Shown: one piece after another, positions 4,131 to 25,685 of the stretch
How the letters are laid out: every line of letters begins with the position of its first letter
How positions within the stretch are numbered: position 1 is the first letter of the stretch
Source: a virus
Reading direction: 5' to 3' (one strand)
IMG/VR virus record: IMGVR_UViG_3300027749_000236
Coordinates: 1-39,450 of that record
DNA: 39,450 nucleotides
Notes under the pieces: generated by a model
Databases searched by the model: none
Told to the model about the DNA's origin: nothing
Seen by the model: only the letters and a program-made list of their open reading frames with translations
Position numbers and translations under genes: made by a program

Positions 4131-4342
4131 GCGAGCGTACCGACAAAGATTATGCCATCGAGCACTTTGGTTATTTAGCCGACGCCGTTGACAACGTGAT
4201 TTTCGCTTACGGCACACCATCAGGACCCGACGCCCGCACCGATGCATTTCGGGGCTTAGAGAGTGCTCTTTACGAATTTAGAAAAGGCGCCAAACGTGCG
4301 GGGCTTCCCACGACCGCCCTACAGCCCGAGGAGGGGGAGTAA
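4127..4342 (+). CDS. Small hypothetical early protein
   Basis: This 71-residue acidic protein starts at the ATG in the ATGA overlap with the previous stop, with GGAG nine bases upstream. An upstream in-frame start at 4076 would be entirely inside the previous gene and is not used. The protein (EHFGYLADAVDNVIFAYG) looks mostly helical. No family is recognised. Its position inside a tightly overlapping early operon supports expression. Confidence 0.6.
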   Translation: MSERTDKDYAIEHFGYLADAVDNVIFAYGTPSGPDARTDAFRGLESALYEFRKGAKRAGLPTTALQPEEGE

Positions 4343-4656
4343 TGGAAGAGAAGTATCCATGCCGCCGCTGCAAGAAAACCTATTCGTCGTCAAGTCCAAC
4401 GACCTACATTCAATATGTTGATGGGATGGCACAGAATATCTGTTGGCGCTGCTATCATGCCATTGGGATCAAGCGCGTGGTTCGGGCAATTGGCATTAGG
4501 TGGCTAAATTTATTGTTGGCTTGCATCTACCCATTTTTAATTTTGATTTACTGGAGTCATGGATCAAGATCAGAGGTCATTATTTTCGCCACGCTCTTTT
4601 TAATTTGGCTCTTTGGTTTCCCCTCGCTGCTTTACCGGAAGAAGGAGAATAAGTGA
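4342..4656 (+). CDS. Small membrane protein with N-terminal zinc-ribbon-like CxxC pairs
   Basis: This 104-residue protein has CRRC near the N-terminus and CWRC near residue 35, spaced like a zinc ribbon. Two hydrophobic segments follow (LLLACIYPFLILIYW and VIIFATLFLIWLFGF), so it probably sits in the inner membrane with the ribbon in the cytoplasm. It is preceded by a very strong GAGGGGGAG ribosome site. The function is unknown. Small early-expressed membrane proteins of phages often act in superinfection exclusion or host takeover, but nothing here proves that. It is followed immediately by a second membrane protein. Confidence 0.66.
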   Translation: MEEKYPCRRCKKTYSSSSPTTYIQYVDGMAQNICWRCYHAIGIKRVVRAIGIRWLNLLLACIYPFLILIYWSHGSRSEVIIFATLFLIWLFGFPSLLYRKKENK

Positions 4657-4859
4657 TGAATAAAGCCCTAAAAAGAATGTTGATCTGTACCGCCATTTAC
4701 ATTGTCGGAGTACTAGCTATCCCCACGTTTTTAAATTGGCAGTGGGTGCCGCCCAGTGAATGGTCAGTTGTAGGGCGAGGGCTTTTTTTATTTGGGCTAT
4801 TTTGGGTGGGATTTGGTGCTTTTGTGTTTCCAGTTTTTGATGAAGGGAATGATCAATGA
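4656..4859 (+). CDS. Small two-helix membrane protein
   Basis: This 67-residue protein has two hydrophobic segments (LICTAIYIVGVLAIPTFL and GLFLFGLFWVGFGAFVFPVF) joined by a short loop. AGGAG lies eight bases before the ATG at 4656; a GTG at 4653 is an alternative start. It directly follows the zinc-ribbon membrane protein with overlapping stop and start, so the two may work as a pair. It is far from the lysis cassette, which argues against a holin role. No family is recognised. Confidence 0.6.
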   Translation: MNKALKRMLICTAIYIVGVLAIPTFLNWQWVPPSEWSVVGRGLFLFGLFWVGFGAFVFPVFDEGNDQ

Positions 4860-5059
4860 CCGATCAACAAGATTGGGATACTGCCGCCGCAGAGGCCGGG
4901 TATCTGCCCACATCTGAGTATGTCAAACGCTGGGCAGCAGCCCGCACCGCTTTTGAGGCGGCACAGGAAGCAAATCGACAAACCCTAGAGGCCTTAGAGG
5001 AAGCCACCATTGCTTATCACGATGCGGTTAACCGTTGGCTGAAGCGGGTGTGGGGATGA
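4856..5059 (+). CDS. Small helical protein, unknown function
   Basis: This 67-residue protein is predicted almost entirely helical, rich in alanine and glutamate, with a heptad-like stretch (EAAQEANRQTLEALEEA) that could form a coiled coil. Both ends overlap neighbours by ATGA. No family is recognised. It is probably a small early accessory protein expressed with the following HTH protein. Confidence 0.55.
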   Translation: MTDQQDWDTAAAEAGYLPTSEYVKRWAAARTAFEAAQEANRQTLEALEEATIAYHDAVNRWLKRVWG

Positions 5060-5229
5060 CCGGACTTGAGATTAAACAAATTCGTCTGGACGCCCACCAG
5101 ACCGTTTCGGCGTTTGCTGAGACGGTCGGTGTAACCCGCCAGACCATCCACAACTGGGAGGCTGGCCGAACGCAGCCGACCGGCCCCGCATGGCGGCTGC
5201 TGATCCACATCAGGAACAACGGAAAATGA
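5056..5229 (+). CDS. Cro/XRE-type helix-turn-helix protein
   Basis: This 57-residue protein is almost entirely one XRE-type HTH domain. It has an N-terminal helix MTGLEIKQIRLDA, then SAFAETVGVTRQTIHNWEAG, where QTIHNWE matches the recognition-helix pattern, and a TQPTGPAWRLL closing helix. I chose the ATG in the ATGA overlap; an upstream frame extension lies in the previous gene. By family it binds DNA as a small repressor or antirepressor of the Cro kind. It is the best visible candidate for a binder of the ATCGCGGGA sites upstream, although nothing in the sequence links them directly. Confidence 0.75.
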   Translation: MTGLEIKQIRLDAHQTVSAFAETVGVTRQTIHNWEAGRTQPTGPAWRLLIHIRNNGK

Positions 5230-7622
5230 ACGCGGAACAGATAGCGCGGGGTCTTGGTAAACATTCCAAGACGACGGGGGGCTATTCGGCCATCTGTCCA
5301 GCACACGACGATAAATCGCCGTCAATGTCGGTCAGTGATGCCGACAACGGTAAAATTCTGGTCCATTGCCACGCTGGGTGCGATCCCGTTGCGGTGATTG
5401 ACGCCCTTAAACGCCGCAATTTGTGGCCGGAACATGTTAACGAAAAGCCGCTTCCGCTAACACGTCAAACCGAACGTGTTAAAAAAACCATTGTTGCCAC
5501 CTATGATTATGTCAATCCAGACACGGGCGAGGTAAAACTACAGGTCGTCCGGTATGAACCCAAAGACTTTCGGCAACGTCGCCCAGATGGTAGCGGTGGC
5601 TGGTCTTGGTCTGTACCGGCATCAGAGCGTATACTATTTAATCTGCCAGCCGTGGCAGCATCTGATAAACTGGTGGTTATTGTCGAGGGTGAGAAAGATG
5701 TTGAAGCATTATCTAAAATTGGTGTCGTCGCGACCTGTAACCCCGGTGGTGCAGGAAAGTGGCAGGACAACTACACCGCCGCTCTCGCCGGTCGAGACAT
5801 TCTCATCCTGCCAGACAACGATGAAGCCGGAGAAAATCACGCCAATGTCGTCGCCACTTCACTCTATGGCAAGGCACGTCAAATCCGTGTTCTTCGCCTT
5901 CCTGACCTTCCTAATAAGGGTGACGTGTTTGATTGGATCAACAATGGTGGCACTCAGCGTGATCTTGGTCGGCTGTATATCGCTTGCCCTGATTGGGTGC
6001 CTGTTCTTAAGCATAACGAGCCTGTACGCCCTGATGAGCCTACAGAGGTCCCTGACACGCCGTTTAAGCCTCTAGGTTTTAACGGCAGCACTTATTACTA
6101 CCTGTCGGTCGGCACCCAACAGGTCGTGCCACTGACACCGGCCCAGCACTCTAAGAACAATCTCTGGTCAATCGCGCCGCGCATGTACTGGGACCGTGAA
6201 TATCCCGGTCGCAACGGTGCGGAGTATGACAACGCCGCTGAACACATGATGCGGATGTGTCACGCCAAGGGTATCTTTAGCCCCGACATGCTAAGGGGAC
6301 GTGGGGCTTGGTACGATGCCGGTCGCCTGATCGTCCACTTAGGGGACATCGTTTATGTGGACCGCCAGCCCTGTAAACCCGTGGCTGTCAGATCGACCTA
6401 CATTTACGAGCAGGGTCTGCCCATGAGGGCGGACATCGACAACAGTCTGCCGCTGCATCAGGCCAGCCGGTTCCTTGATCTGGTCCAGATGCTACCTTGG
6501 CAGCGTGACATCGACGCGCTGCTGGTCGCTGGCTGGTGCGTTACGGCACATATCGGGGGTGTCTTAGGCTGGCGTCCGCACATCTGGGTGGTCGGCTCTA
6601 AGGGGTCCGGTAAGACCCACGTTATGTCTAAGGTGATCCGGCCTGTGCTGGGTGACAATTGCCTGTTCGTCGTCGGTGAGACCACCGAAGCCGGTGTGCG
6701 CCAGTCGCTTAAGCACGACGCCCTGCCAGTCCTGTTCGATGAGGCAGAGGGCGAGGACACGAGGGCCAGTGACCGCCTCCAGCGTATTCTGGCATTGGTA
6801 CGCCAATCATCGTCCGAAGCCGGTGGGCGGATCGCCAAGGGGTCTGTGAGCGGCCACGCGATGTCGTTTCAGGTTCGGTCGTGTTTCGCCTTCAGTTCAA
6901 TCAACGCCAGTTTGGTTCAGCAGTCCGACCGTTCACGGGTTTCGGTGGTCGAACTGAGCGCCGACCGCAAACATCATGAGTTCGAAGAAATTCTCGCGGC
7001 AGAGGCCAGCCTACTGACCGAAGAGTTCATCCAACGGTTCTACGCCCGTGCGATCAATCACGCTGTGTCGATCCGCCATAACGCTGACGTGTTCGCCAAG
7101 GCAGCGGCTGCGGTTCTGGGCGAGCAACGGGCGGGCGACCAGATTGGGGCGCTGCTGGCCGGTGCGTGGTCACTGATCAACGACAACGGGGTGACGTTCG
7201 AACAGGCTAAGGATTGGCTGAAGCTGTACGACAAGGACATGGATGAACAGCGCGAGGAGGTCCAAGGCCAGTCGGATGAGCAGATGCTGTTAGACTTCCT
7301 GATGCAGCAAATAACCGACGTTCCTACCGACCGCGGTTCCAGTCGCAAGGCCGTGGGGGAGTTGGTCGAGGTGTGTCGCGGGCAGGAATACGACACCCAC
7401 GAGTACGCGAAACAGGCACTGGGGAGGCTGGGGATCAAGGTCGAACGGACCGGCATTTATGTCTCAAACACCGCTGATGGCCTGAAGCGGCTCTTACGCG
7501 GGACGCCTTGGAGCGTGAACTGGGGGAAGATTTTGCGGCGTCTGCCAAACTCAAGCGCGGCGGGCGTGATCTACTTTGGATACACCGGATCGGAGGCGAG
7601 GTCCGTTTTTGTCCAAATCTAA
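5226..7622 (+). CDS. Bifunctional DNA primase-helicase (CHC2 zinc finger, TOPRIM, DUF927-like ATPase)
   Basis: This 798-residue protein is the main replication enzyme. The N-terminus carries a CHC2-like zinc finger (C24, H27, C48, C52, with CHAGC). A TOPRIM domain follows, with VIVEGEKDVEAL and the metal-binding ILPDNDEAG near residue 200. The C-terminal half resembles DUF927-type helicases: Walker A WVVGSKGSGKTH, then Walker B-like PVLFDEAEG and an arginine-rich sensor region. By family it makes RNA primers and unwinds the fork. The ATG at 5226 overlaps the HTH stop. The gene ends directly at the iteron-rich segment 7623-7919, which fits an initiator/helicase placed next to its origin. Confidence 0.9.
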   Translation: MNAEQIARGLGKHSKTTGGYSAICPAHDDKSPSMSVSDADNGKILVHCHAGCDPVAVIDALKRRNLWPEHVNEKPLPLTRQTERVKKTIVATYDYVNPDTGEVKLQVVRYEPKDFRQRRPDGSGGWSWSVPASERILFNLPAVAASDKLVVIVEGEKDVEALSKIGVVATCNPGGAGKWQDNYTAALAGRDILILPDNDEAGENHANVVATSLYGKARQIRVLRLPDLPNKGDVFDWINNGGTQRDLGRLYIACPDWVPVLKHNEPVRPDEPTEVPDTPFKPLGFNGSTYYYLSVGTQQVVPLTPAQHSKNNLWSIAPRMYWDREYPGRNGAEYDNAAEHMMRMCHAKGIFSPDMLRGRGAWYDAGRLIVHLGDIVYVDRQPCKPVAVRSTYIYEQGLPMRADIDNSLPLHQASRFLDLVQMLPWQRDIDALLVAGWCVTAHIGGVLGWRPHIWVVGSKGSGKTHVMSKVIRPVLGDNCLFVVGETTEAGVRQSLKHDALPVLFDEAEGEDTRASDRLQRILALVRQSSSEAGGRIAKGSVSGHAMSFQVRSCFAFSSINASLVQQSDRSRVSVVELSADRKHHEFEEILAAEASLLTEEFIQRFYARAINHAVSIRHNADVFAKAAAAVLGEQRAGDQIGALLAGAWSLINDNGVTFEQAKDWLKLYDKDMDEQREEVQGQSDEQMLLDFLMQQITDVPTDRGSSRKAVGELVEVCRGQEYDTHEYAKQALGRLGIKVERTGIYVSNTADGLKRLLRGTPWSVNWGKILRRLPNSSAAGVIYFGYTGSEARSVFVQI

Positions 7623-7919
7623 CGGTTTAACCGTAAGTTGGCGTGGGCTACCGTAAGTGACAACCTACTGAAAACACTAACAAAAAGAGTTCAACTTACG
7701 GTTCTTATGGTTCTAACGCTACATGATAGTATATTAGAGAAAAACTTTTACACTTTATGAACCTGATGGAGTGTAAAAGATTTCTCTTCTATTCTATTTC
7801 TAAAACCGTAAGTAAGTGTAAGTACCGTTAGTAGATTGATTATAAAGGGTTATTCGTTAACGGTTTGACTTACGGTCGGTTTTTAGACCGTTAGGTCTAT
7901 GAAATCATTGAGGTTTTTC
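7623..7919. other. Candidate replication origin: AT-rich iteron cluster
   Basis: No gene is seen in this 297-base, clearly AT-rich segment. It contains five exact copies of ACCGTAAGT: 7630-7638, 7650-7658 and 7805-7813 on the + strand, and 7694-7702 and 7868-7876 on the - strand. Near copies lie at 7824-7832 (ACCGTTAGT) and 7887-7895. AACGGTTT flanks the cluster at 7621-7628 and 7859-7866. A long inverted repeat lies at the centre. Iterons, AT-richness and a hairpin directly after the primase-helicase gene are the usual make-up of a phage origin. The function is inferred. Confidence 0.6.
7736..7787. repeat. Long inverted repeat inside the iteron cluster
   Basis: CTTTTACACT (7745-7754) pairs perfectly with AGTGTAAAAG (7770-7779) around a 15-base loop. 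The pairing extends outward through AGAGAAA (7736-7742) and TTTCTCT (7781-7787) with a small internal mismatch. That gives a stem of about 17 pairs. It could be a hairpin for initiation, a binding site for a dimeric protein, or a weak terminator, as pyrimidine-rich sequence follows. Confidence 0.7.
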
Positions 7920-9035: not shown

Positions 9036-9166
9036 ACGATCACCAAGAAATTTGTTTCACCGATTTGCTTAAAAGCGTTACTATTGGCTCAGTGGTTCGT
9101 ATGGCTGTAGAAGCCATTGTTGTATTCGGGTTCTTCTGGACCCTTTTTAGGCTAATTGGCGTTTGA
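9032..9166 (+). CDS. Small single-span membrane protein
   Basis: This 44-residue frame starts in the ATGA overlap with GGGGAG upstream. Its second half is a single hydrophobic helix (MAVEAIVVFGFFWTLFRLIGV). No family is recognised. The stop overlaps the upstream region of the gpZ-like gene, so it may couple translation. It is too far from the lysis genes to call it a holin with confidence. Confidence 0.5.
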   Translation: MNDHQEICFTDLLKSVTIGSVVRMAVEAIVVFGFFWTLFRLIGV

Positions 9167-9173
9167 GGGTTCA

Positions 9174-9920
9174 ATGCTGACGTTTCGTGTTACCGACGAT
9201 GTGATTAGGGTCACGAAATCATTAAGCGCCCTTGGATCGCGCCACATCCCGCGATCCACCTATATCGCGCTCACCAAGTCAGCAAAGCAGGGCAAGGACG
9301 ATGTGGTTGCGTCCATGCCCAAGGTGTTCGACCGACCCACGCGCTACACCCTAAACAGCTTGTTTGTCAGGGCAGCGACCAAGGAAACCAAGGCCGCTGA
9401 AGTGATGATTAAGGACTTCGCGTCCAAGGGCACACCAGCAATCAAGTTCCTAGCGCCTGAGATATACGGCGGTGAACGTCGCCTGAAGCGGTATGAGCGG
9501 GCACTACAGGCCGCTGGTGTCCTGCCTCATGGGATGTATGCCATACCAACAAAGGCGGCACCCACGGACGCCTATGGCAACGTACCTGCTCGCATCTTCA
9601 CGCAAATCCTATCAGCGTTGAGATCGTCAAGTGATCCATACCAGAACCGCACAGCAGCCAGCGCAAAGCGAGCGCGAGGGCGTCAGGCCCAGTGGTTCGC
9701 TGTTACTAAGCGGGAAGGTGGACTGAAGCCGGGGATATATCAACGTTTCGGGTTCGCGCATGGCAGCGCGGTCAAGCCCATATTCATATTCACGCACAAG
9801 GTGCCCACCTATCGCCAGCGCCTACCGTTTTTCAAAACCGTCGAGGCCACGGTGTCGCGCACCTTCGCTGCCTACTTCGATCAGGCATTGAGCGAGGCTC
9901 TGGCTAAGTGGGGCGAGTGA
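9174..9920 (+). CDS. Putative minor tail protein Z-like (tail completion) protein
   Basis: This 248-residue basic protein has the general shape of lambda gpZ-type proteins: an N-terminal helical ALTKSAKQGKDDVVASMP stretch, a central lysine/arginine-rich region, and a C-terminal helix with TFAAYFDQALSEALAKWGE. ATG 9174 with GAGGG upstream is preferred over TTG 9156. No gpZ equivalent is seen at the lambda position between FII and U, so this could be Z moved upstream of the terminase genes. The similarity is weak and the call is an inference. It is followed by the cos/late control region. Confidence 0.45.
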   Translation: MLTFRVTDDVIRVTKSLSALGSRHIPRSTYIALTKSAKQGKDDVVASMPKVFDRPTRYTLNSLFVRAATKETKAAEVMIKDFASKGTPAIKFLAPEIYGGERRLKRYERALQAAGVLPHGMYAIPTKAAPTDAYGNVPARIFTQILSALRSSSDPYQNRTAASAKRARGRQAQWFAVTKREGGLKPGIYQRFGFAHGSAVKPIFIFTHKVPTYRQRLPFFKTVEATVSRTFAAYFDQALSEALAKWGE

Positions 9921-14713: not shown

Positions 14714-16606
14714 GTGACCCAGAATGTTGAATTGAGGAAGTTGACGCTGCCCGCACTTACTCGCGGGCAGCAGTCGTCCCTTTCGTTGGATGGTGAAGCG
14801 CGGTCGCTTGAATTTGCGTTTTCATCGGAGATGCCTGTTGAGCGGTGGTTCGGTGATGAAGTTCTTTCGCACGATCCCGGCACGGCAGACCTTACGCGCC
14901 TGAACGATGCTGCCCCGCTGCTTTGGAACCATGACCCTAACCAGATGATCGGCGTTGTTGAAAGCGCCCGTATCGGCAGCGACAAGCGTGGTTACGCCAC
15001 CGTTCGTTTTGGCACATCGCCAATGGCCGAACAGGTTATGAACGACGTTCGTGCGGGCATCATCCGCAACGTGTCGTTTGGATATCGGATCAATGAAATG
15101 GTCGAGGCTATCCGCGACGGAAAGTCCACCTATACGGCAACCTCTTGGTCGCCTCTTGAAGTTTCTCTGGTTTCAATTCCCGCTGACCAATCGGTCGGTA
15201 TCGGGCGCTCTGAAACAGAGGATGGCCGCGACGTTGTTGTTCGCGGTTTAGCCCCACTAGAACACAAGGAAGTTGAAGCTATGACTGAAGCCGCTGCGGC
15301 CCCCGTGGTCGATATGTCTGCGGTACGCGCCGAAGCGGCTCACGCCGAACGCGCCCGTATCGAAACCATCCGCTCGCTTGGCGAGCGGTTTGAAAAGGCC
15401 GATCTGGCCCGCCAGTTGATCGAAGGTGGCCGTTCCATCGACGAAGCCAAATCGGCGTTCCTCGAAATCGCTGGCGTTCGTCACCAGCCCGTTGTTGAAG
15501 GCGCTGCCGATCTGAGCCTGACCGACAAGGAAAAGCGGGATTACTCGCTGGTTAACGCGATCCGCGCCCAAGTCACCGGCAACTGGAAAGATGCTGGCTT
15601 TGAGCGTGAGTGTTCCGAAGCCATTGCCAAGCGCACCGGCAAGGACACCCCCGGTTTCTTCATGCCTATGAACATCACGCTTGACCGTGCGGCTTACGCT
15701 GTCGGCACGGCTGGTTCGGGCACGACCGGCGGCACCTTGGTTGCCACGAACCTGTTGGCTGGTTCGTTCATCGAACTGCTGCGTAACAAGGCCCGCGTCG
15801 TTCAGCTTGGCGCTCAGATGCTGTCTGGCCTGACCGGCAACGTGGACATTCCGCGCCAGACCGCAGCCACCAGCACCTATTGGGTTGCTGAAGCTAGCGA
15901 CGTGACGGAAGCCGAAGGCACTTTTGATAAGATCAGCCTGTCTCCGAAGACGCTGGGCGCTCGCTCGCAGATGTCGCGTATGATGATGATGCAGTCCACC
16001 CCTGACATCGAAGTGCTGGTTCGCAACGACCTTGCTGCCCAGATTGCTCTCGGTATCGACCTTGCTGCACTCTCCGGTACGGGTTCGTCCAACCAGCCAC
16101 GCGGTATCCTGAATACCTCTGGCATCGGTTCGGTCGTCGGCGGCACCAACGGTGCGGCTATCACGATTGATCATTTGATTGATTTGGAAACCCAAGTGAC
16201 CGCCGCAAACGGCCCAGATAGCAACCTTGCCTATCTGACCAACGCCAAGGCCATCGGTGCGCTCAAGAAGCTGAAGTCCACCACCGGCCAGTACCTCTGG
16301 ACTGGCTCGATGGTTGGCGCTCAGTCTGGCACCCCCGGCGAGATCAACGGTTACGCCGTTGCCCGCTCTAACCAAGTGTCGTCTACCGGCACCAAGGGCA
16401 CCGCATCGGGCGTTTGCTCCACCGTCGTCTTCGGCGCTTGGAACGAACTGATCATCGGTGAGTTCGGCGTTCTTGAAGTTCTCGCCAATCCTTACGGCGC
16501 TGGCTTCAATGCTGGTTCGATTGATATTCGCGCTTTGCAGTCGGTTGACATTGGGGTCCGCCACGCGGCGTCCTTCAGCGCCATGACTGACGCCCTGACC
16601 GCCTAA
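14714..16606 (+). CDS. Prohead protease fused to HK97-fold major capsid protein
   Basis: This 630-residue protein joins two proteins that are separate in many phages. Residues 1-160 look like an HK97-type prohead serine protease, with the histidine motif LLWNHDPNQMIG and the serine motif RNVSFGYRI. A helical delta-like segment follows (VRAEAAHAERARIETIRSLG). From about residue 310 an HK97-fold capsid begins (GFFMPMNITL onward, with NKARVVQLGAQ, STYWVAEASD, DLAALSGTGSSNQPRGIL). By family the protease frees itself and trims the scaffold before DNA enters. GTG 14714 with AGGTG eight bases upstream is the start. There is no separate scaffold gene. Confidence 0.92.
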   Translation: MTQNVELRKLTLPALTRGQQSSLSLDGEARSLEFAFSSEMPVERWFGDEVLSHDPGTADLTRLNDAAPLLWNHDPNQMIGVVESARIGSDKRGYATVRFGTSPMAEQVMNDVRAGIIRNVSFGYRINEMVEAIRDGKSTYTATSWSPLEVSLVSIPADQSVGIGRSETEDGRDVVVRGLAPLEHKEVEAMTEAAAAPVVDMSAVRAEAAHAERARIETIRSLGERFEKADLARQLIEGGRSIDEAKSAFLEIAGVRHQPVVEGAADLSLTDKEKRDYSLVNAIRAQVTGNWKDAGFERECSEAIAKRTGKDTPGFFMPMNITLDRAAYAVGTAGSGTTGGTLVATNLLAGSFIELLRNKARVVQLGAQMLSGLTGNVDIPRQTAATSTYWVAEASDVTEAEGTFDKISLSPKTLGARSQMSRMMMMQSTPDIEVLVRNDLAAQIALGIDLAALSGTGSSNQPRGILNTSGIGSVVGGTNGAAITIDHLIDLETQVTAANGPDSNLAYLTNAKAIGALKKLKSTTGQYLWTGSMVGAQSGTPGEINGYAVARSNQVSSTGTKGTASGVCSTVVFGAWNELIIGEFGVLEVLANPYGAGFNAGSIDIRALQSVDIGVRHAASFSAMTDALTA

Positions 16607-16662: not shown

Positions 16663-16824
16663 ATGCAGTATAAAATTCGCGATAATTTTTACATTTATGG
16701 CCTACGCCCAGACCCCTACAAGCCGGGGGATATTGTGGAACTAACTCCCGCGCAAGCTAAGGCGCACGGCCACAAAATCGAGGCTGTTCAGCCCACGCCA
16801 AAGGTTCGTTCCGGTGATCGGTGA
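16663..16824 (+). CDS. Small head protein, unknown function
   Basis: This 53-residue frame encodes MQYKIRDNFYIYGLRPDPYK followed by GDIVELTPAQAKAHGHKIEAV. This resembles short proteins often found after phage capsid genes, with the pattern vel-t-aqAkah-hkiE. The role is unknown; a small head-assembly factor is plausible. It overlaps the next gene by 11 bases. The ribosome site is weak (GGGTG). Confidence 0.58.
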   Translation: MQYKIRDNFYIYGLRPDPYKPGDIVELTPAQAKAHGHKIEAVQPTPKVRSGDR

Positions 16825-17089
16825 TGATCTAACAGTCTTTTTTGGTGATTTTGCCCATACTGTTGTTTGGTCAACTGTTACAGGTAAGGGCATCCTTGAC
16901 GCGCCAACTAATGTGATGGGCGGTGGCATGGTTTTGTCTAACGAATACCTATTGACCGTGAAAACATCAGAATTTGGCGGTGCTGGATATGGTGACAACA
17001 TCACGGTTAACAGTGTTTTGTATCAAGTCAGAGAGGCCCGACAGGTAGACGACGGTGCTTTAACAGAAATTCTACTGTCCAAGGTTTAA
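16814..17089 (+). CDS. FII-like head-tail connector
   Basis: This 91-residue beta-rich protein begins at GTG 16814. It has the pattern of lambda gpFII-type connectors: YLLTVKTSEF, then YGDNITVNSVLYQVREARQVDDGALTEILL. By family it closes the neck below the W-like protein and provides the tail-binding surface. Its place between capsid and the tail terminator agrees. Sequence similarity is low, so the call rests on pattern and position. Confidence 0.68.
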   Translation: MIGDDLTVFFGDFAHTVVWSTVTGKGILDAPTNVMGGGMVLSNEYLLTVKTSEFGGAGYGDNITVNSVLYQVREARQVDDGALTEILLSKV

Positions 17090-17091
17090 CA

Positions 17092-17505
17092 ATGATTATT
17101 CGCGAACAAATATTAAGCGCGATAGTCACGCTCCTACAGACTAATACACACGCTCCTGTTTACAGAAGCAGGGTAACGCCAATTGCACGAAATGAGGCTC
17201 CGGCTATTGTCGTTGAGCCGGTAACAGATCGGCAGAACCAAAACACGCTATCTCAGTTGCGCGATGAATTGACGGTTCGAGTTTCCGTAATCGTACGGGG
17301 ATTAGTGCCTGATAGTGTCGCGGACCCTATAGTCAAAGAACTTCATTCTAAGATAATGGCTGATACGTCGCTTGGCGGCTTGTGTTATGAACTATTACCG
17401 TCTGGAACGGGGTTTGAACTCCTTGAGACTGATAGTAATTCTGGTATAGTGTCGCTTGACTTTATCATTCAATATCGAACCGACCTTCAAAATTTAGCAA
17501 CCTAG
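17092..17505 (+). CDS. Tail terminator, gpU-like (standalone copy)
   Basis: This 137-residue protein is of the gpU/tail-completion type: an N-terminal helix IREQILSAIVTLLQ, the conserved VYRSRVTPIARNEAPAIVVEP, DELTVRVSVIVRG, the helix VADPIVKELHSKIMADTSLG, and DFIIQYRT near the end. By family a hexamer caps the tail tube and joins it to the head connector. It is clearly paralogous to the last 139 residues of the 19975 gene product, with roughly half the positions identical by eye, including VYRSR, VEP, HSKIM-DT-LGGL and YRT. It sits at the lambda U position. Confidence 0.82.
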   Translation: MIIREQILSAIVTLLQTNTHAPVYRSRVTPIARNEAPAIVVEPVTDRQNQNTLSQLRDELTVRVSVIVRGLVPDSVADPIVKELHSKIMADTSLGGLCYELLPSGTGFELLETDSNSGIVSLDFIIQYRTDLQNLAT

Positions 17506-17515
17506 CGAGGCTCCA

Positions 17516-17917
17516 ATGGCCCTTCAGTTCTCTGTTACCGCTCGAAATGCACGTCTTGACGCAGTGGAAGTTACTACTGGCACGTCCGCCCAGCTTCGCC
17601 TTTACAGCGGCACTCAGCCAGCGGATTGCGCCACGGCGGCATCTGGAACGCTGCTTGCCACGCTGACCTTGCCTAGTGACTGGATGGCGGCGGCATCGTC
17701 TGGGTCAAAGGCTCTTTCTGGAACGTGGTCTGGTACTGCTTCTGGCGCTGGTACTGCGGGATATTTCCGCATTCTGGACAGCACCGGCACTACTTGCCAT
17801 GCACAGGGTTCCGTGGGCACCACCGGCACGGATATGATCCTGTCGCCTAGCGCCGCGCTGACCAGTTCGCAGCCGATTTCGATCACCTCATTCACGCTGA
17901 CTGACGCGAACGCTTAA
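17516..17917 (+). CDS. Putative virion protein, beta-rich
   Basis: This 133-residue protein begins MALQFSVTARNARLDAVEVT and continues with TSAQLRLYSGTQPADCATAASG and GYFRILDSTGTTCHAQGSVG. I have seen this pattern repeatedly in phage structural regions without a known function. It looks like a beta-sandwich with many Thr/Ser/Gly residues. It sits inside the cassette between the two terminator paralogues and could be a neck or head decoration. Confidence 0.62.
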   Translation: MALQFSVTARNARLDAVEVTTGTSAQLRLYSGTQPADCATAASGTLLATLTLPSDWMAAASSGSKALSGTWSGTASGAGTAGYFRILDSTGTTCHAQGSVGTTGTDMILSPSAALTSSQPISITSFTLTDANA

Positions 17918-17919
17918 TC

Positions 17920-18360
17920 ATGGCTGATAACACCACGCTCAACCCCGGTAGCGGCGGCGACGTAATTGCGTCTGATGATATTGCTGGCGTAAAACACCAG
18001 CGGATCAAAAACGGTTTTGGCGTCGATGGTGCATATGTTGATGTGTCCGTGACCGACCCTCTTCCTGTGGCAGTTTACGGTGAGTTAATTGAAGCTATTG
18101 AACAGCTTCGAATTATGATCGGTGCGCTGACTAACACAATCGGCAAGGTCTTGCCGGATGCGGCTGGCCGTCAGCGGGTCGTTGTAGACGCCATTACGGG
18201 TGCGCTGACGCTAGCCACCGTGACTACGGTCGGTACAGTTACCACTGTCGGCACGGTAACGAACCAGACCAACATCGGGGGTCTGGCTGCCGTCGATAAA
18301 ATTCCCGCCCTAATGCACATGAGCGCAGACAATCTGCGCCGCAACATCACGGTGACGTAA
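17920..18360 (+). CDS. Putative virion protein
   Basis: This 146-residue protein begins MADNTTLNPGSGGDVIASDD and IAGVKHQRIKNGFGVDGAYVDVS, a start pattern common among phage structural proteins. A TVTTVGTVTTVGTVTNQTNI stretch (residues 107-126) is a short beta repeat. The end (MHMSADNLRRNITVT) is also typical. The function is unknown. It is next to the propeller-like protein and may help attach it. Confidence 0.62.
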   Translation: MADNTTLNPGSGGDVIASDDIAGVKHQRIKNGFGVDGAYVDVSVTDPLPVAVYGELIEAIEQLRIMIGALTNTIGKVLPDAAGRQRVVVDAITGALTLATVTTVGTVTTVGTVTNQTNIGGLAAVDKIPALMHMSADNLRRNITVT

Positions 18361-19800
18361 ATGACCACAACCGTTGTCAATCGCAAACTGCTCGACCTAA
18401 AGCGTTGGGAAATGGTGACGCCCGCTCCGGCGGCATCTGCCTCTGGTTCCGTAATCGCCCCTTCCCGCATGGTGCAGCAGCAGCAGTTATTTGTTCAAAG
18501 CGCCACGGTGGCATATCTTTATAACCCATTCGAAGACGGCTGGGTTCAGGTTCCATCCCCGGCTCTAGCGGGCACCTTTGGTACAGGCGCCTGTGCGACC
18601 GCGACTTGCGTCGGCCCTACGGGTACGGCAACGGGTGGTACCACAACCACCATTAATACGGGCTTATCACTTGCTCGCGGTTTGGCTGGTTATCAGGTTC
18701 TGATCACCGCTGGCCCCGGTGCTGGCGACGTTCGCACGATCCAGCAAGCCACGGTCGGCGCAAACAGTATTATCACCGTCACTTCAGCCTTCAGCACTGC
18801 TATTACATCAGCGTCGGTCTTCCGCCTGATGACTCCTCGCTGGTACGTCCTGAACGCCATCGGCTCTCTGGGTACCACCACGGCTGGTGTGTTTCGTTAT
18901 TATGATTTCGCGCTAAACACTTGGACTTCGCTGTCAGCCAACGCCCCCGCGCTGGTTATCAGTACAGATAGTGTTCTAACGGCCACGCCGTCCTATGTGG
19001 ACAACGGATTTGTATCGTTCGCGACGGGTACGGCAACCTCGGCTACGAACACCACCAACGCCACAATTACGGTAACGGGTAAGACGTGGACGACTAACCA
19101 GTGGTCCAACTACCAGCTACGGGTCACGGCGGGTACGGGTGTAGGCCAGATCAAGTCGATCACGTCTAACACTGGTACTGTCTTGACGCTGAACGGCGTG
19201 TTCACTACTGCCTTAGATGCGACATCGGTCTATGCCATCGAAGCAAACGATGATTACATCTACTACACGGGATCGAACGCTGTTACGCTCTACCGTTACG
19301 GCATCACCGCTGGTACTTGGACCACCCTTACCCCCGGCACAGCCCGTGCTGCGGCTCCCGGTAACGGCATGAGTGCTAACTGGGTATGGGCCGTATCTGA
19401 CGCATCGTGGACCAATGAAAGCGCCATCAAAAATGGTCGCTTCATCTACTCTGCTCGCGGAACTACTGGCGCTATCATCGACACCTACGATATTGCCCTT
19501 AACACTTGGGCGAACGCCATCGCATATGCGCCAGCCACCGAAACTTTTGCAGCCGGTACAAAGTACGCTTATTTCGGCAACTACATCTACATTCAAAAAG
19601 ATGCAACGGGCCGCTGGTTCCAGTTCGACGTGCTGAATAACTCAATGGAGGGTTGGTCCACTACCCTTTATACGCAGGGCGCTGCACTCATGGGAAACAC
19701 TGCGTTTGTAGCGCCATATACAGATGGCGCTACAGTAATTCCTTACGTTAATTTTATTCTTAACACATCAACCGTAATGCTTCGTCAGATGGTGATCTAG
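18361..19800 (+). CDS. Kelch-like beta-propeller virion protein
   Basis: This 479-residue protein has at least five blade-like motifs of the form Y-x-aromatic, then NxW: LYNPFEDGWVQVP, RYYDFALNTWTSLS, YRYGITAGTWTTL, TYDIALNTWANA and FQFDVLNNSMEGW. Two copies of a roughly 70-residue module are inserted (residues about 88-158 and 222-293), each with YQ-x-ITAG/VTAG-x-G, a following I, and a TSAF/NGVF-TA end. A Kelch-type propeller would suit carbohydrate or receptor binding. There is no signal peptide, so it is likely a virion part. It abuts the previous gene (TAA then ATG). Confidence 0.66.
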   Translation: MTTTVVNRKLLDLKRWEMVTPAPAASASGSVIAPSRMVQQQQLFVQSATVAYLYNPFEDGWVQVPSPALAGTFGTGACATATCVGPTGTATGGTTTTINTGLSLARGLAGYQVLITAGPGAGDVRTIQQATVGANSIITVTSAFSTAITSASVFRLMTPRWYVLNAIGSLGTTTAGVFRYYDFALNTWTSLSANAPALVISTDSVLTATPSYVDNGFVSFATGTATSATNTTNATITVTGKTWTTNQWSNYQLRVTAGTGVGQIKSITSNTGTVLTLNGVFTTALDATSVYAIEANDDYIYYTGSNAVTLYRYGITAGTWTTLTPGTARAAAPGNGMSANWVWAVSDASWTNESAIKNGRFIYSARGTTGAIIDTYDIALNTWANAIAYAPATETFAAGTKYAYFGNYIYIQKDATGRWFQFDVLNNSMEGWSTTLYTQGAALMGNTAFVAPYTDGATVIPYVNFILNTSTVMLRQMVI

Positions 19801-19802
19801 AT

Positions 19803-19970
19803 ATGTCCAGCATTGAAGAACTAATTGAACAACACAAAAAGCGGTTAGTTTATCTGAGCGCCTTGCTATCTAGTGCTTTGGCTCTTGGTGATACCGCACA
19901 GGTCAGCGATGTGCAGAACCAAATCAGTGACGTTCAGATCACCCTGAATAAACTTCAATTACTGATCTAA
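19803..19970 (+). CDS. Small coiled-coil protein
   Basis: This 55-residue frame (SSIEELIEQHKKRLVYLSALL onward) is wholly helical with heptad-like spacing and ends in ITLNKLQLLI. It lies between the propeller protein and the repeat/terminator fusion. It may be an oligomerising or attachment peptide of the same structure. No family is recognised. Confidence 0.55.
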   Translation: MSSIEELIEQHKKRLVYLSALLSSALALGDTAQVSDVQNQISDVQITLNKLQLLI

Positions 19971-19974
19971 ACTA

Positions 19975-21606
19975 ATGTTGCTACTACTCCTTGCTCCAAA
20001 CCAGCTAGGGGCGGTCACTGGCAATTTGTCAGTGACCTTGGGAGCGGCTGGTGTTTCGGCATCCGGCGTTGGAACGGCGATAGGCACAGCCGCGATTACG
20101 CTCGACACCGCCACGGTATCCGCTGCTGGCATTCCCGGCCCTTACGGTACAGCGTCGATTACTACTGGCGGTGCCACTGTTTCAGCATCCGGTTTTGGAA
20201 CGGCTCTCGGTACGGCGTCAATTACGCTGAACGATGCTACGGTGTCGGCTGCTGGATCGGTTAGCCCAGCCACTACATTCGGCACTCTGTCAATCACGCT
20301 TGACGCGGCTACGGCGTCTGCTGCTGGCATCTTTGGCCCTTACGGCACAGCCGCGATTACGCTGGGTGCCGCCACGGTTTCGGCGTCTGGTGTTGGAGCC
20401 GCCCTAGGCGCACTTTCCGCTACATTGGGGACCGCTACTCTTTCATCTGACGGTCAAATTACGCCGGTCGCTGTCGGCACAGCCGCGATCACGCTGAGTG
20501 CTGCCAATGTGTCGTCTAATGGCATTTCTGGGCCATATGGCACTCTGTCCAAAACGCTAGACACCGCCACTGTTTCATCGGCTGGCGCTTTGAACGCTAC
20601 AGGCGCACTTTCTGTCACGCTGGGGGCGGCTACCCTTTCGTCTGCCGGTGCTATTACACCAGTCGTAACCGGCACCGCAGCGATCACCCTAGGCGCTGCC
20701 GCCGTGTCGTCCAGTGGTGTCTCTGGTCCATACGGTACTCTGTCCAAAACGCTTGATGCGGCCACTCTGTCGGCGTCTGGCATGGGAACCGCTTTGGGGT
20801 CGCTCTCAGCGGTCACTGGCGGCGCTACCGTCTCTGCCGCTGGTCAGATCACGCCGGTTGCAGTTGGTACCGTAGCAGTCACGCTAGGCGCTGCATCTGT
20901 TGCGTCTCAGGGCTGGCAAGTCGAAGTCGGTACGCTTTCTAAAACACTCAATGCGGCCACACTGTCAGCGGCTGGCGTTCAAACCGCTCTAGGATCACTC
21001 GCGGCGGCCACGGGCGCGGCTACAGTATCTGCTGCCGGTCAGATTACGCCAATCGCCATCGGCGCTCTGTCAGTCACACTTGGGTCGGCATCTGTTGCGT
21101 CTCAGGGCTGGCAAGTCGAGGTCGGCACGCTATCCATACCGCTAGGTGCGGCGACTGTCGCGGCAACGGGTGCGGTCGATTTTGCGACTAAGCGCGAGCG
21201 TGTTCTGGTGTCGCTCCTTGAAAAACTGTCAACGGTTCCCGGCGTTTCAGGGCGGGTATACCGCAGCCGACAAGCGCCGCTATCCAGAGATGAAATGCCC
21301 GCGATTATTGTCGAGCCGATTTCTGACGATGCAGTCGTTTCTAACTCATGGATGCTAGACTGGACCCTATCGGTTCGTATCTCTGTCGTCGTGAGATCAG
21401 ATGTTCCAGATCAAGCTGCTGATACATTGGTTGAAAGCATACACAGTAAGATAATGCTTGATACGGGATTAGGCGGGCTTTCTATGGATGTTCAGCCGCA
21501 ATCAACAAGCTGGGAATTGCTCGACGCGGATTTGCCCGCTGGTGTCATTTCGTGCGATTATGCGGTTCTTTACCGTACTTCACTATCGGATTTAACCGTG
21601 GTATAG
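19975..21606 (+). CDS. 18-repeat fibre-like protein fused to a second tail-terminator domain
   Basis: This 543-residue protein has two parts. Residues about 16-404 are about 18 consecutive repeats of 21 (sometimes 23-24) residues with the pattern G-T/A-L/A-S/A-x-T-L-G/D-A-A-T-V/L-S-A/S-A/S-G. They are rich in Ala, Ser, Thr and Gly and look like a beta-solenoid or a stacked fibre. Residues about 405-543 are a gpU-like tail-terminator domain, clearly paralogous to the 17092 product (VYRSRQAPLSRDEMPAIIVEP, HSKIMLDTGLGGL, YRT). A short hydrophobic start (MLLLLLAP) is unlikely to be a signal peptide in this operon. The fusion would anchor fibres at the neck; that is inference. Confidence 0.85.
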   Translation: MLLLLLAPNQLGAVTGNLSVTLGAAGVSASGVGTAIGTAAITLDTATVSAAGIPGPYGTASITTGGATVSASGFGTALGTASITLNDATVSAAGSVSPATTFGTLSITLDAATASAAGIFGPYGTAAITLGAATVSASGVGAALGALSATLGTATLSSDGQITPVAVGTAAITLSAANVSSNGISGPYGTLSKTLDTATVSSAGALNATGALSVTLGAATLSSAGAITPVVTGTAAITLGAAAVSSSGVSGPYGTLSKTLDAATLSASGMGTALGSLSAVTGGATVSAAGQITPVAVGTVAVTLGAASVASQGWQVEVGTLSKTLNAATLSAAGVQTALGSLAAATGAATVSAAGQITPIAIGALSVTLGSASVASQGWQVEVGTLSIPLGAATVAATGAVDFATKRERVLVSLLEKLSTVPGVSGRVYRSRQAPLSRDEMPAIIVEPISDDAVVSNSWMLDWTLSVRISVVVRSDVPDQAADTLVESIHSKIMLDTGLGGLSMDVQPQSTSWELLDADLPAGVISCDYAVLYRTSLSDLTVV

Positions 21607-21613
21607 GTGAGAT

Positions 21614-21748
21614 ATGGACGAACACCAAGGTCAAGGCGGTACATATATTCTCAACCCAAAGACGGGTAAGCGAGAGTTAGTGCAGCGAACATTAGAACTG
21701 GCAGAGCAGCCGGTTGCTCCTGCTAATCAACCGAAAAAGGCGGAGTAA
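21614..21748 (+). CDS. Small hypothetical tail-region protein
   Basis: This 44-residue hydrophilic frame (MDEHQGQGGTYILNPKTGKR onward) lies between the terminator fusion and the major tail protein, with AGGTGAG three bases before the ATG. It ends in a lysine/proline-rich tail. No family is recognised; short peptides at this position are common in tail operons. Confidence 0.55.
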   Translation: MDEHQGQGGTYILNPKTGKRELVQRTLELAEQPVAPANQPKKAE

Positions 21749-21754
21749 TTTATA

Positions 21755-22708
21755 ATGGCCCTACTTTCTCGCAAGCGAGTAATTCTTGCCAAGACCGAAA
21801 GCGTGTATGGCACTGACCCAACGCCTACCGGCGCGGCCAACGCCATTCTGGTTCGCAACCTTGATGTCACGCCACTGGACGCTGAAATTGTCAGTCGTGG
21901 TTTGGTGCGTCCGTATTTTGGTTCTTACGATCAGATCATTGCGGCTCAGAAAGTCGGCATTTCGTTTGAAGTTGAACTTCAGGGCGCTGGTGCGGCTGGA
22001 ACGGCCCCGGCCTATGGTCCATTGCTCAAGGCTTGCGGCCTTGCTGAAACCATTAGCGCGGGCGTCAGCGTTGCTTACGCGCCGGTGTCTGCATCGTTCA
22101 GCAGCGTAACGCTATACGTTCAGGTTCAGGACAACGGCGGCGGTTCGTCTCCATTGCATAAAGTCACCGGCTGTCGTGGAAACGTCGAGATCACTCTTAA
22201 CGCCAAGGCTCTGCCGGTTATGAAATTCACATTCACGGGCGTTTATAACGCTGTTGTGGATGCTGCCCAGTTGACCGCAACCTACACCGCGTTCAAGACG
22301 CCAACGGCTGTAAACAAGGCAAACACGCCCACGTTCAGTTTCTTCGGCTATTCCGGCATTATGTCGGACTTCGGCATGAACATGAATAACGAGGTCGTTT
22401 ACCGGAACCTGCTGAACAGCGAAAGCGTGATCCTTACCGACCGTAAGGCCGGTGGAACGGTTCAGTTTGAAGCGCCAACGATCACGGCCAAGGACTTCTT
22501 TGCTGCCGCTCTGGCTACTACGCTGGGCAGTATGCAGATTGTCCACGGCACGGTTGCCGGTTCTATCGTGGACATTTCCGCGACCAGCACGGTTGACGTT
22601 GTGAACCCGTCTTATAACGACATGGACGGGATCGTTATGCTGTCGGTTCCTTATGTGCTGACGCCAACGACTGCTGGTAACGACGAATTTACGCTGACAA
22701 TCAAATAA
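21755..22708 (+). CDS. Major tail tube protein (lambda V-like)
   Basis: This 317-residue protein has the typical start of phage tail-tube proteins: SRKRVILAKTESVYGTDPTPTGAANAI, then VSFEVEL-like beta strands and a plug loop with YGPLLKACGLAETIS. The second half (SFFGYSGIMSDFGMNMNNEV onward) is a further beta domain. By family, hexameric rings stack into the tail tube. Its place just before the tail chaperone and tape measure agrees. It is longer than lambda gpV (246 residues), which could mean extra surface domains. Confidence 0.88.
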   Translation: MALLSRKRVILAKTESVYGTDPTPTGAANAILVRNLDVTPLDAEIVSRGLVRPYFGSYDQIIAAQKVGISFEVELQGAGAAGTAPAYGPLLKACGLAETISAGVSVAYAPVSASFSSVTLYVQVQDNGGGSSPLHKVTGCRGNVEITLNAKALPVMKFTFTGVYNAVVDAAQLTATYTAFKTPTAVNKANTPTFSFFGYSGIMSDFGMNMNNEVVYRNLLNSESVILTDRKAGGTVQFEAPTITAKDFFAAALATTLGSMQIVHGTVAGSIVDISATSTVDVVNPSYNDMDGIVMLSVPYVLTPTTAGNDEFTLTIK

Positions 22709-23059: not shown

Positions 23060-23400
23060 AAGCCGCCGCGCAATACTGGGTGCGCGGCGGCACTTCCTAC
23101 GAAGACGCGATTGCTGATCTAAAGGGGTTTGGTGCGCCTGAAGACGTTATCGCTCAGTTAGAGGAAATACAGCAAGGTGAAGACTTTGATGTGTTTCCTG
23201 AGAACTGGGAAACTATGGAAGTATTTTTGCGCCTTCAAACTCAATGGCGCGTTTCACAAGGCGCGTTTATTGGGTTAGACTACAATGCAGCAAAATTCAT
23301 TTTTGATGTTTGCAAAATCGAAGATCAAAAAGAAACTCTTGATGGTCTTCAGATAATTGAATTTGCAGCGTTGAAGGCATTGAACGAACGGGCGAAATAA
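22718..23400 (+). CDS. Tail assembly chaperone, frameshifted long form (GT-like)
   Basis: A -1 slip at AAAAAAC (23050-23056) joins the short form to the downstream frame, giving 227 residues. After the slip the frame reads LEAAAQYWVRGGTSYEDAIADL, a good helix that runs straight into the DUF1799-like domain. The internal GTG at 23080 has no need to act as a start. In lambda the T part recruits the tail protein while G coats the tape measure; the ratio is set by the frameshift. The downstream frame ends where the tape-measure ATG begins (TAATG). Confidence 0.86.
23050..23091 (+). promoter_or_regulatory. -1 programmed ribosomal frameshift site with stem-loop
   Basis: The slippery heptamer A AAA AAC lies at 23050-23056 in the frame of the short chaperone. 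A five-base spacer (23057-23061) follows. The stem is GCCGCCGCGC (23062-23071) pairing with GCGCGGCGGC (23082-23091), ten perfect G-C pairs with a ten-base loop. This is the canonical arrangement for -1 frameshifting. Confidence 0.9.
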
Positions 23401-25685
23401 TGGCGATGAATATCACCGAAGCCAAGGTTAGGATCACCGCGCAAACTGTCGGTGAGCAGAACATTGACGCCCTAAAAAGACAGATTGAAGGTCTTCACAA
23501 AAGCGTCGGCGGTATCAGTAAGGGCTTTGAACGGTTTGGCGCTCTTGCCAAGGGGTTCATTGGCGCTGAACTGGTCAAGGGCTTTGGCAATTTCATTTAT
23601 AAGTCCATCGAACTTGGCGATCACCTGAACGACCTGTCGCAAAAATTCGGCGTGTCTGTCGAAGCAATTTCGACGTTTTCTGATGCCGGTGCTACTGCTG
23701 GCGCTGACCTTGAAACGGTCGCGAAATCCTTCGCCAAATTGTCCAAGGCGGAAGTCGAGGCAGCAACCGGAAACAAGGCGGCGGCGGGTGCTTTTAAGGT
23801 TCTGGGTTTGTCTGTCAAAGACGCTAACGGCAACCTAAAAGATGCCGGTGTGATGGCGCTGGATATTGCCGACAAATTTAAGACGATGAAGGACGGCCCA
23901 GAAAAGGCCGCTTTGTCCATGAAGCTGTTCGGCAAGGCTGGGGCCGATATGATCCCAACGCTGAACATGGGCAGCGCCGCGATTGAGCAGTTTGGAAGCA
24001 AGATGTCTGGCGATTTCGCCCGAATGGCTGACGCCTTCAACGACAAGATCGAAGGCATAAAAATTAAGTTCCGTAACCTATCTATCGTGGGCGCTACGGA
24101 ATTGCTGCCAACCTTGAACGACATCATTGATGCGTTCAGCGGTTTGGAAAGCCAAGGCCCAGATGCGGTGACGTTCTTCGACGGCGTGGGCGAACTGGCC
24201 CGTCTGGCGGCGTTTGCTCTGGGCGAAGTTTACTTTGCGGTTATGGATGTCGGCGGCGCTCTCGCCACGGCGGCGCAACAGGCTTGGGCTATTGCTCACG
24301 GAAACTGGGAAAAAGTTAAGCAGCTTCAGAAGGAACGGGACGCTGACCAAACGGCTCGCAATCTTTCTGAAAAAGCGTTCATGGATAAGATGCTTAAAAA
24401 CTCGCTGGTCTTTGGCAGCGGGAGCATCGCGCAGATCAAGGCGCGTCAACAGGCATCGGTTAAGCCAGCCGCGCCACGGCTAGGTCAAGGCGGTTTGCCT
24501 GATCTTTCCGCACTGGACACCACGGCGGCTGACGAAGGCAAAAAGAAACTTGAAGAATACGAAGCTGCGCTTGGTGGCCTAAAGGGTAAGGCCGCGCAAC
24601 TCAATTTCGAAATTGCCAACTTTGCGAAGTATGGCGACAAGGTGACGAGCGCACAGGGTGCGCTGATGCGGTTTGAGACCACACAGGGTAAGTTTAAAGA
24701 CGATACGACCGCGCAAAAAACAGCATTGATAGAAGCCGCTGATGCGGTTGATAAGTTGACCGAAGCGCGGGTTCTGCAAAATAAGGTTGATGCTGAAGGC
24801 AAAGACATTGCCAAATCAAAAATCGGCTGGGAAGCCGACACGCAAGCCATTCTAGATCAGGGCAAGGCTCTGACTATGACTGCGTTTGATTATGATCAAA
24901 TGATCGCCCGTAAAAAGAAGATTGCTGAAATTGATCAGCATATTGTCGATTGGGAAACCACGACAGCAAAAGCCTATAGAGATGGCGCGTTGGCTGCGTT
25001 TGATCACGGCCAAGAATTAGAGCGGCTGGCGAAGCAAAAAGAAAATACGTTTGGCGGCGGGGCTAGTGCGGCCATAACATCATATGGCAAGGACATTGCA
25101 AACGTCGGGCAACATGCTTTTGACGCTTGGACAAACGCGCTTAAAGGCACCGAAGACGCCCTAGTGAATTTTGCCATGACCGGAAAGCTGTCGTTCAAAA
25201 ATTTAGCTAACAGCATTATTGCGGACCTAATTCGAATTGCTATTCAGCAAGCGATTATGAAACCGCTAATGATGTTTCTTGGCTTACCTATGGCAAACGG
25301 CGGCGCTTTCAGTGGCGGCAGTCAGGTTAGCATAAATGCTAACGGCAACGCCTTTGGTTCGCAGGGCGTAATGGCGTTCGCCAGCGGCGGTGTTGTTAAT
25401 CAGCCCACGATGTTTCGTCACGGCGGCGGGCTAGGTGTGATGGGCGAGGCTGGTCCTGAGGCGATTATGCCGCTACGGAGGCTCTCAAGTGGTCGGCTGG
25501 GCGTCGAGAGTGCCGGTGGTGGCGGCGGCACCCAGAACGTCGTTGTGAACGTAAGCGTCGAGGGTGGTGGCTCACAAGCCAGTGGCGATCCCGGCAAGGC
25601 TAATGAACTGGGCAAATTGGTGGCGAACGCTGTTCGGGTCGAACTGGTTCAGCAAAAACGCCCCGGCGGATTGTTGGCGGCATAA
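23400..25685 (+). CDS. Tail tape measure protein (lambda H-like)
   Basis: This 761-residue protein has a tape-measure layout. There is an N-terminal helical region with KGFIGAELVKGFGNFIYKS, a long helical and alanine/lysine-rich middle, and a hydrophobic segment near residues 600-625 (SIIADLIRIAIQQAIMKPLM). It ends in the conserved C-terminal GGAFSGGSQV and GVVNQPTMFRHGGGLG, then EAGPEAIMPLRRLSSGRLGV. The C-terminal pattern is shared with lambda gpH, where the end is cleaved. By the usual rule of about 0.15 nm per residue the tail would be near 115 nm; that is an estimate. Confidence 0.92.
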   Translation: MAMNITEAKVRITAQTVGEQNIDALKRQIEGLHKSVGGISKGFERFGALAKGFIGAELVKGFGNFIYKSIELGDHLNDLSQKFGVSVEAISTFSDAGATAGADLETVAKSFAKLSKAEVEAATGNKAAAGAFKVLGLSVKDANGNLKDAGVMALDIADKFKTMKDGPEKAALSMKLFGKAGADMIPTLNMGSAAIEQFGSKMSGDFARMADAFNDKIEGIKIKFRNLSIVGATELLPTLNDIIDAFSGLESQGPDAVTFFDGVGELARLAAFALGEVYFAVMDVGGALATAAQQAWAIAHGNWEKVKQLQKERDADQTARNLSEKAFMDKMLKNSLVFGSGSIAQIKARQQASVKPAAPRLGQGGLPDLSALDTTAADEGKKKLEEYEAALGGLKGKAAQLNFEIANFAKYGDKVTSAQGALMRFETTQGKFKDDTTAQKTALIEAADAVDKLTEARVLQNKVDAEGKDIAKSKIGWEADTQAILDQGKALTMTAFDYDQMIARKKKIAEIDQHIVDWETTTAKAYRDGALAAFDHGQELERLAKQKENTFGGGASAAITSYGKDIANVGQHAFDAWTNALKGTEDALVNFAMTGKLSFKNLANSIIADLIRIAIQQAIMKPLMMFLGLPMANGGAFSGGSQVSINANGNAFGSQGVMAFASGGVVNQPTMFRHGGGLGVMGEAGPEAIMPLRRLSSGRLGVESAGGGGGTQNVVVNVSVEGGGSQASGDPGKANELGKLVANAVRVELVQQKRPGGLLAA

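Follow-up and report, generated by a model that had tools for sequence, protein, structure and literature searches.

We find that a 543-residue protein of an uncultured virus joins an array of short repeats, in frame, to a tail terminator domain. Its gene lies in a window of 39,450 nucleotides (the whole stretch of DNA that was analyzed), which holds two terminator copies only: C1, a standalone protein, and C2, the C-terminal domain of the fusion, here called REP-C2. The fusion is real, and the sequence evidence for it is sound. Few virion proteins are as uniform as tail terminators, which are small, encoded by single-copy genes, and present as six subunits per virion. REP-C2 as a whole is neither standalone nor single-copy, and we do not class it as an ordinary terminator because it is a 543-residue fusion and a second copy is present. 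The features discussed below are as follows.

16814-17089, plus strand: head-tail connector, lambda gpFII-like (Phage_attach, PF05354, E 9.5e-9), directly upstream of C1
17092-17505, plus strand: C1, standalone tail terminator paralogue of 137 residues (phrog_4204)
17516-17917, plus strand: p3758, "virion structural protein" (phrog_3758, E 1.3e-33), the first cassette gene
17920-18360, plus strand: g17920, a gene that precedes the kelch-like gene in dozens of contigs
18361-19800, plus strand: kelch-like protein of 479 residues, with a weak Kelch match and 101 relatives in IMG/VR
19803-19970, plus strand: small gene of 55 codons between the kelch-like and repeat genes, also found in L096, L101, L104, and L166
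19975-21606, plus strand: REP-C2 fusion, 543 residues, N-terminus MLLLLL
20020-21177, plus strand: 18 repeats of the type G-T-L-S-x-T-L-G-A-A-T-V-S-A-A-G (residues 16-401)
21187-21603, plus strand: C2 tail terminator domain (residues 405-543), joined in frame behind the repeats
21614-21748, plus strand: small gene of 44 codons between C2 and the tube gene, 84% identical in L255 at equal spacing
21755-22708, plus strand: candidate major tail (tube) protein (phrog_290, E 7e-27), with relatives annotated as tail tube protein

Reading frame, fold, and translation of REP-C2

The REP-C2 frame is uninterrupted at exactly 19975-21606, with no internal stops over 543 codons. Residues 16-401 contain 17 units that fit a strict pattern (consensus G-[TA]-[LA]-[SA]-x-T-L-[GD]-A-A-T-V-S-A-x-G) and one further unit inside a 44-residue interval, giving 18. 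The units are spaced by 21, 21, and 23-24 residues, and a higher-order period of about 66 residues is visible in DNA self-matches that are 68% identical at an offset of 198 nt. The boundary with the terminator domain falls at about residue 405. A preliminary description had placed about 18 repeats directly in front of a terminator domain, and the open frame, the 18 units, and the in-frame junction bear this out. IMG/VR contig 3300010885_008152 (L003) is 100% identical to the window from position 19984 on and spans the repeat-C2 junction; the window record is itself an IMG/VR virus contig, and the two may share reads.

The phrog_4204 "tail terminator" profile matches C2 at E 2e-33 when the domain is excised and at 8e-33 within the full 543-residue protein, and it matches C1 at E 4e-30. 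The Pfam family Phage_tail_U is sub-threshold on both copies (16.3 and 14.8 bits, with 25 needed). Across 134 residues, C2 and C1 share 44% identity (E 3e-39), in agreement with the paralogy proposed earlier between the last 139 residues of the fusion and the protein at 17092.

AlphaFold2 predicts the same order of elements for both copies, helix-two long strands-helix-two long strands, with a mean pLDDT of 82 for C1 and blocks mostly at 68-92 for C2. The C2 model (residues 404-535) aligns with lambda gpU (3fz2_A) at a VIA-align Z of 16.0 and an rmsd of 2.4 over 127 residues. C1 matches lambda gpU 3fzb with a Foldseek E of 6.6e-10 and TM scores of 0.79/0.83 to 3fzb_F, and the next-ranking structural matches are other solved terminators (T5 p142, Chi, R4C, and GTA). 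The gpU fold ascribed to residues 405-543 in the preliminary description is thus predicted (Z 16.0 for C2), and the contrary outcome, a C-terminal domain lacking that fold, was not seen. The repeat part is modeled as beta-strands at low confidence (pLDDT ~34-68). Matches of this part to tailspike beta-helices (6e1r and 8opz, Z ~15) were set aside because the model has such low pLDDT there; an arm or fiber is a candidate shape that the repeats may adopt.

At the position of its canonical start Met, C2 reads DFATKRER, where relatives begin M-T-x-K/R-R-E. No in-frame ATG, GTG, or TTG occurs from 20797 to 21207, and the nearest in-frame starts, ATG 20782 and TTG 20794 within the repeats and GTG 21208 within helix 1, all lack a clear ribosome site. 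Separate translation of C2 was considered and rejected: no start lies near the canonical site, and GTG 21208 would cut helix 1. Lacking a start codon of its own, C2 can be properly produced only as part of the fusion. The REP-C2 ATG has no Shine-Dalgarno motif and lies 4 nt after the stop of the 55-codon gene, a spacing that makes coupled translation from this preceding gene likely. C1 has its own start, with AAGG upstream.

Gene order and the inserted cassette

The head and tail module of the window is lambda-like, with a gpA-type terminase, a portal, a protease-capsid fusion, a connector, terminator, tube, chaperones, a tape measure of the lambda type, and gpM/L/K/I/J-like genes; an integrase is also encoded. 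At 14714-16606, one ORF of 630 residues combines the prohead protease (Peptidase_S78) with the major capsid protein (Phage_capsid). A gpZ-like tail completion/minor tail protein (9156-9920; phrog_1924, E 1e-68, with a weak Minor_tail_Z match) maps upstream of the terminase genes, well away from the tail module, whereas the lambda gene lies between FII and U.

The sibling contig L255 has, in order, a connector, a single terminator, a 44-codon gene, and the tube gene. C1 begins two bases after the connector stop, like the L255 terminator, and C2 lies at the canonical junction of terminator, small gene, and tube and keeps the L255 spacing. Both copies are thus found in the usual terminator location between connector and tube gene, C1 after the connector and C2 before the small gene and tube, and the 3.7 kb between them is the cassette. 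Identity to L255 is 83.5% for the connector, 84% for the 44-codon gene, 88.6% for the tube protein, and 92% for the gpM-like protein, compared with 52% for C1 and 58% for C2 against the sibling terminator (neighbor genes, 84-92%). The chaperone genes are 62-64% identical to those of the sibling and the tape measure differs too, so the region is mosaic. The tape measure (23400-25685) has conserved ends and 761 codons, compared with ~1000 in L255 and L256, a difference that implies different tail lengths in otherwise close phages. In L256, a gpL-like protein (6157-7488) has an insertion of ~190 residues relative to the window copy, with flanks 85-86% identical.

The order g17920, kelch-like gene, small gene, and M-L-L-x-L-L protein recurs in many IMG/VR contigs, often with p3758, which adjoins repeat proteins in >20 contigs. 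Repeats resembling G-x-L-S-x-T-L-G-A occur in ~30 other phage proteins, mostly next to p3758. REP-C2 has the MLLxLL N-terminus, the repeats, and the place after the kelch-like and small genes that characterize these cassette proteins, and its repeat part is the last cassette gene. In many other phages, among them L096, L192, L199, and L148, the cassette occurs without a terminator. In L096, whose kelch-like protein is 90% identical to that of the window, the kelch-like and small genes are followed by a 359-residue repeat protein that has a Trp-containing end and no terminator. The M-L-L-x-L-L proteins of these four contigs share the N-terminus, gene order, and alternating strand-rich repeats of REP-C2; they end, however, in sequences such as the Trp-rich GTWKNATPFVKVSGVWK or TPNWQDVNDSQTGNWVQ, whereas REP-C2 ends in the terminator domain. 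The cassette-type C-terminal end, which is variable and Trp-rich in several proteins, is absent from REP-C2, and C2 stands there instead. These comparisons suggest that the C-terminal end of the repeat protein was most likely replaced by a terminator domain.

The cassette repeats of L148 (9605-11230) flank a Laminin_G_3 lectin domain (E 2e-18), and the C-terminal Trp-rich tail of that protein matches the minor tail protein family phrog_6977. In L168 (1873-3993), a 707-residue cassette protein with a MLLTLL-type N-terminus follows the kelch-like gene and has an unrecognized C-terminal domain; it found no match in PHROG and may be another protein whose C-terminal end was swapped.

The queries used to look for recurrence of the fusion were the two terminator copies, the full fusion, and two alignments; the best 80 matches per scan were taken, many on fragmentary contigs. 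The matches listed gave 400 loci, of which 243 have a terminator domain, with 150 distinct domain sequences. Four records of the same phage (L001, L003, L254, and L329) were left out of the uniqueness count. Apart from this phage's records, none of the 400 loci listed has two terminators, and no other of the 150 distinct sequences listed has an N-terminal extension of >45 residues. With the whole fusion as query, the matches listed held no other fusion than that of the identical contig. A tblastn search of isolate phages with the terminator found S-CBS1, S-LBS1, and S-CBS3 only; with the repeats it found no match, a negative that the low-complexity filter weakens. Among bacterial genomes, one contig of a planctomycete bin (L083) has an ordinary terminator, and a literature phrase search for two or duplicated tail terminators found no description in those words. 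By these sequence searches, the fusion is unique to one lineage. The preliminary description had held that finding further repeat-gpU fusions beside this cassette would favor a system; the cassette is widespread, the fusion is confined to that lineage, and no recurring system was found.

The slot between connector and terminator is a variable one. Among 123 loci with connector, terminator, and tube, the gap between connector and terminator is 0.6 kb in many and 1.9-3.6 kb in some, and none has a large insert between terminator and tube. Fiber- or adhesin-like genes fill the connector-terminator slot in L004, L089, L091, L069, and L064. Among siphophage relatives, L004 has a kelch-like gene for a 946-residue protein in this slot (4295-7802), and L089 and L091 have lectin- or fiber-like genes there. 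In the isolate Synechococcus phage S-CBS1, mtd and a tail-fiber gene lie just before the terminator, and the tail-fiber gene overlaps the terminator by one base. In such an arrangement, the loss of one stop codon would do much to create a fusion, and the origin of REP-C2 is therefore easy to account for.

Descent and possible roles of the two terminators

In phylogenetic trees, C2 groups with the sibling's terminator (support 99/98), and the branch leading to C1 is very long. With the farthest rows removed from the tree, the sibling terminator and both window copies cluster together (94/84); C1 as the closest sister of C2 has no support, yet it is not rejected (p-AU 0.37). By segment, C2 is closest to the sibling in its last 20 codons (78% of bases) and least similar at the fused 5' end (43%), and the 5' end of C1 is among its closest stretches to the sibling. 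Duplication with fast divergence and import of one copy by recombination are equally possible on these sequence comparisons. Of the duplication and fusion proposed earlier, the extra terminator copy and the fusion stand; a simple tandem duplication is unproven, as C2 groups with the sibling and C1 has the long branch.

Conservation was scored at 34 columns that are invariant in 45 near relatives. C2 keeps 33 of them, its single change being the conservative V40I, and C1 keeps 29 (changes D57R, W58D, D100E, P116N, and A117S). C2 thereby retains an LDW motif that C1 has lost (D57R and W58D). One of the loops of lambda gpU contacts the tube (PMC10721106), and by analogy we infer that LDW ends the tube-contacting loop in this family. 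Between C2 and the sibling terminator, dN is 0.36 and dS 1.9, the latter near saturation; dN is likewise well below dS for C1. The low dN relative to dS in both copies leaves undated the time at which selection acted, and the faster divergence of both copies than of their neighbors would also fit relaxed constraint.

The most likely reading of these observations, although a tentative one, combines cassette insertion, fusion of C2, and a mixed ring of C1 and REP-C2 with repeat arms at the neck. An adhesin- or decoration-type cassette would have entered the interval from the head-tail connector to the tail terminator, a slot occupied by such genes in many relatives, and the terminator gene came to be present twice, on either flank. 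The downstream copy would then have lost its start codon and become the C-terminal domain of the last protein that the cassette encodes, a repeat protein, in place of its usual end. Through its gpU fold, C2 would dock beside plain C1 subunits in the hexameric terminator ring, and the repeats would project outward from the peripheral N-terminal helix as up to six neck arms, which may touch host surface glycans. We infer the expression, mixed ring, neck position, and role of REP-C2.

Published structures bear on this arrangement in two ways. Terminators assemble into a single hexameric ring, which closes off the tube and contacts the stopper (PMC10721106, PMC11784142). In the ring, the helices are peripheral (PMC10276861) and the lumen is lined by the sheet (PMC11784142), so that an arm fused at the N-terminus can face outward. 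The N-terminal helix of the R4C terminator, however, contributes to subunit contacts (PMC10276861), and T5 p142 with an N-terminal His6 forms monomers (PMC11784142), so a 400-residue N-terminal arm could block entry into the ring. We favor a mixed ring because a minority of armed copies would avoid crowding and because the weak start of the fusion would fit a minor share. The further proposal that a hetero-hexameric (C1 plus REP-C2) or doubled ring bears armed subunits as neck whiskers, with a duplicated terminator anchoring a repeat adhesin, is more doubtful.

Alternatively, C1 could be the working terminator and REP-C2 a by-product of cassette insertion, in which a stop was lost, C2 is passive, and the repeats do not act at the neck. 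The normal start of C1 with its AAGG, its position next to the connector, the single occurrence of the fusion among the loci listed, the accelerated divergence of both copies, and the missing Shine-Dalgarno motif of REP-C2 are all consistent with this alternative. We nevertheless consider it rather unlikely, because a copy released from function should decay first, and C2 is instead nearer the family consensus (one change, compared with five in C1, at the 34 invariant columns), with a complete fold, 139 open codons, and dN well below dS against the sibling.

It is improbable that C2 is the main terminator, with arms on all six subunits, and that C1 is decaying or has changed role (for example, to a second ring between the connector and the C2 ring). 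The closeness of C2 to the tube gene, its grouping with the sibling terminator, and the LDW that it keeps and C1 has lost, at the end of the loop whose lambda counterpart contacts the tube, point that way, and the order connector-C1-C2-tube would match the physical stack. Closure of the ring may, however, be impeded by six 400-residue arms at contact-making N-termini (PMC11784142, PMC10276861), the translation start of C1 is the better one, and we found no siphophage with two terminator rings in the literature on terminators. An assembly chimera or sequencing error at the repeat array, as might be suspected in an uncultured contig whose same-virus counterparts break near the repeat gene (L084 ends at ~19903 and L003 starts at 19984), is very improbable, as L003 shows 100% identity through all repeats, across the boundary with C2, and into the tube gene, the kelch-small-repeat order upstream of the junction matches L096 and others, and the frame is intact for 543 codons.

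If the mixed ring with neck arms is correct, the neck ring would be divisible into plain and armed subunits, and adhesin cassettes could attach to the virion by using a borrowed core structural domain as anchor. This would also help to explain why these phages carry adhesin-like genes immediately ahead of the terminator gene. The neck-whisker reading may apply to REP-C2 and is a testable idea. As a mere leftover, REP-C2 would still be a clear snapshot of cassette insertion breaking and fusing core genes.

Comparison with known systems

C1 and C2 resemble lambda gpU and the PHROG 4204 terminators in profile, in the helix-strand-strand-helix-strand-strand fold, and in their place before the tail-tube gene; gp11 of S-CBS1, a PHROG 4204 terminator, is 52% identical to C2. 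The known members are single, standalone proteins of ~130-165 residues, whereas here there are two copies, one of them behind ~400 repeat residues.

The proposed arrangement, in which elongated accessory proteins ring the neck, is similar to the neck passage structure (collar/whisker) of TP901-1 and the 936 group (PMC6669499, PMC10747895). The lactococcal structures are built from stand-alone proteins that combine a BppU-like N-terminal ring domain, a coiled coil, and a CBM, and attachment to the portal or adaptor has been proposed. In REP-C2, the anchor would instead be the C-terminal terminator domain. Pfam gave no match to a BppU-like ring domain, a coiled coil, or a CBM in REP-C2, whose repeat part is modeled at low confidence only.

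The TpeX/Ig-like major tail proteins of the 936 group offer a second parallel, in that a core protein of the tail-tube module carries an optional display extension beside a plain version (PMC6669499). In those proteins, the extension is C-terminal or made by frameshift, and belongs to the tube protein and the same gene, whereas that of REP-C2 is N-terminal and is carried by a duplicated terminator gene.
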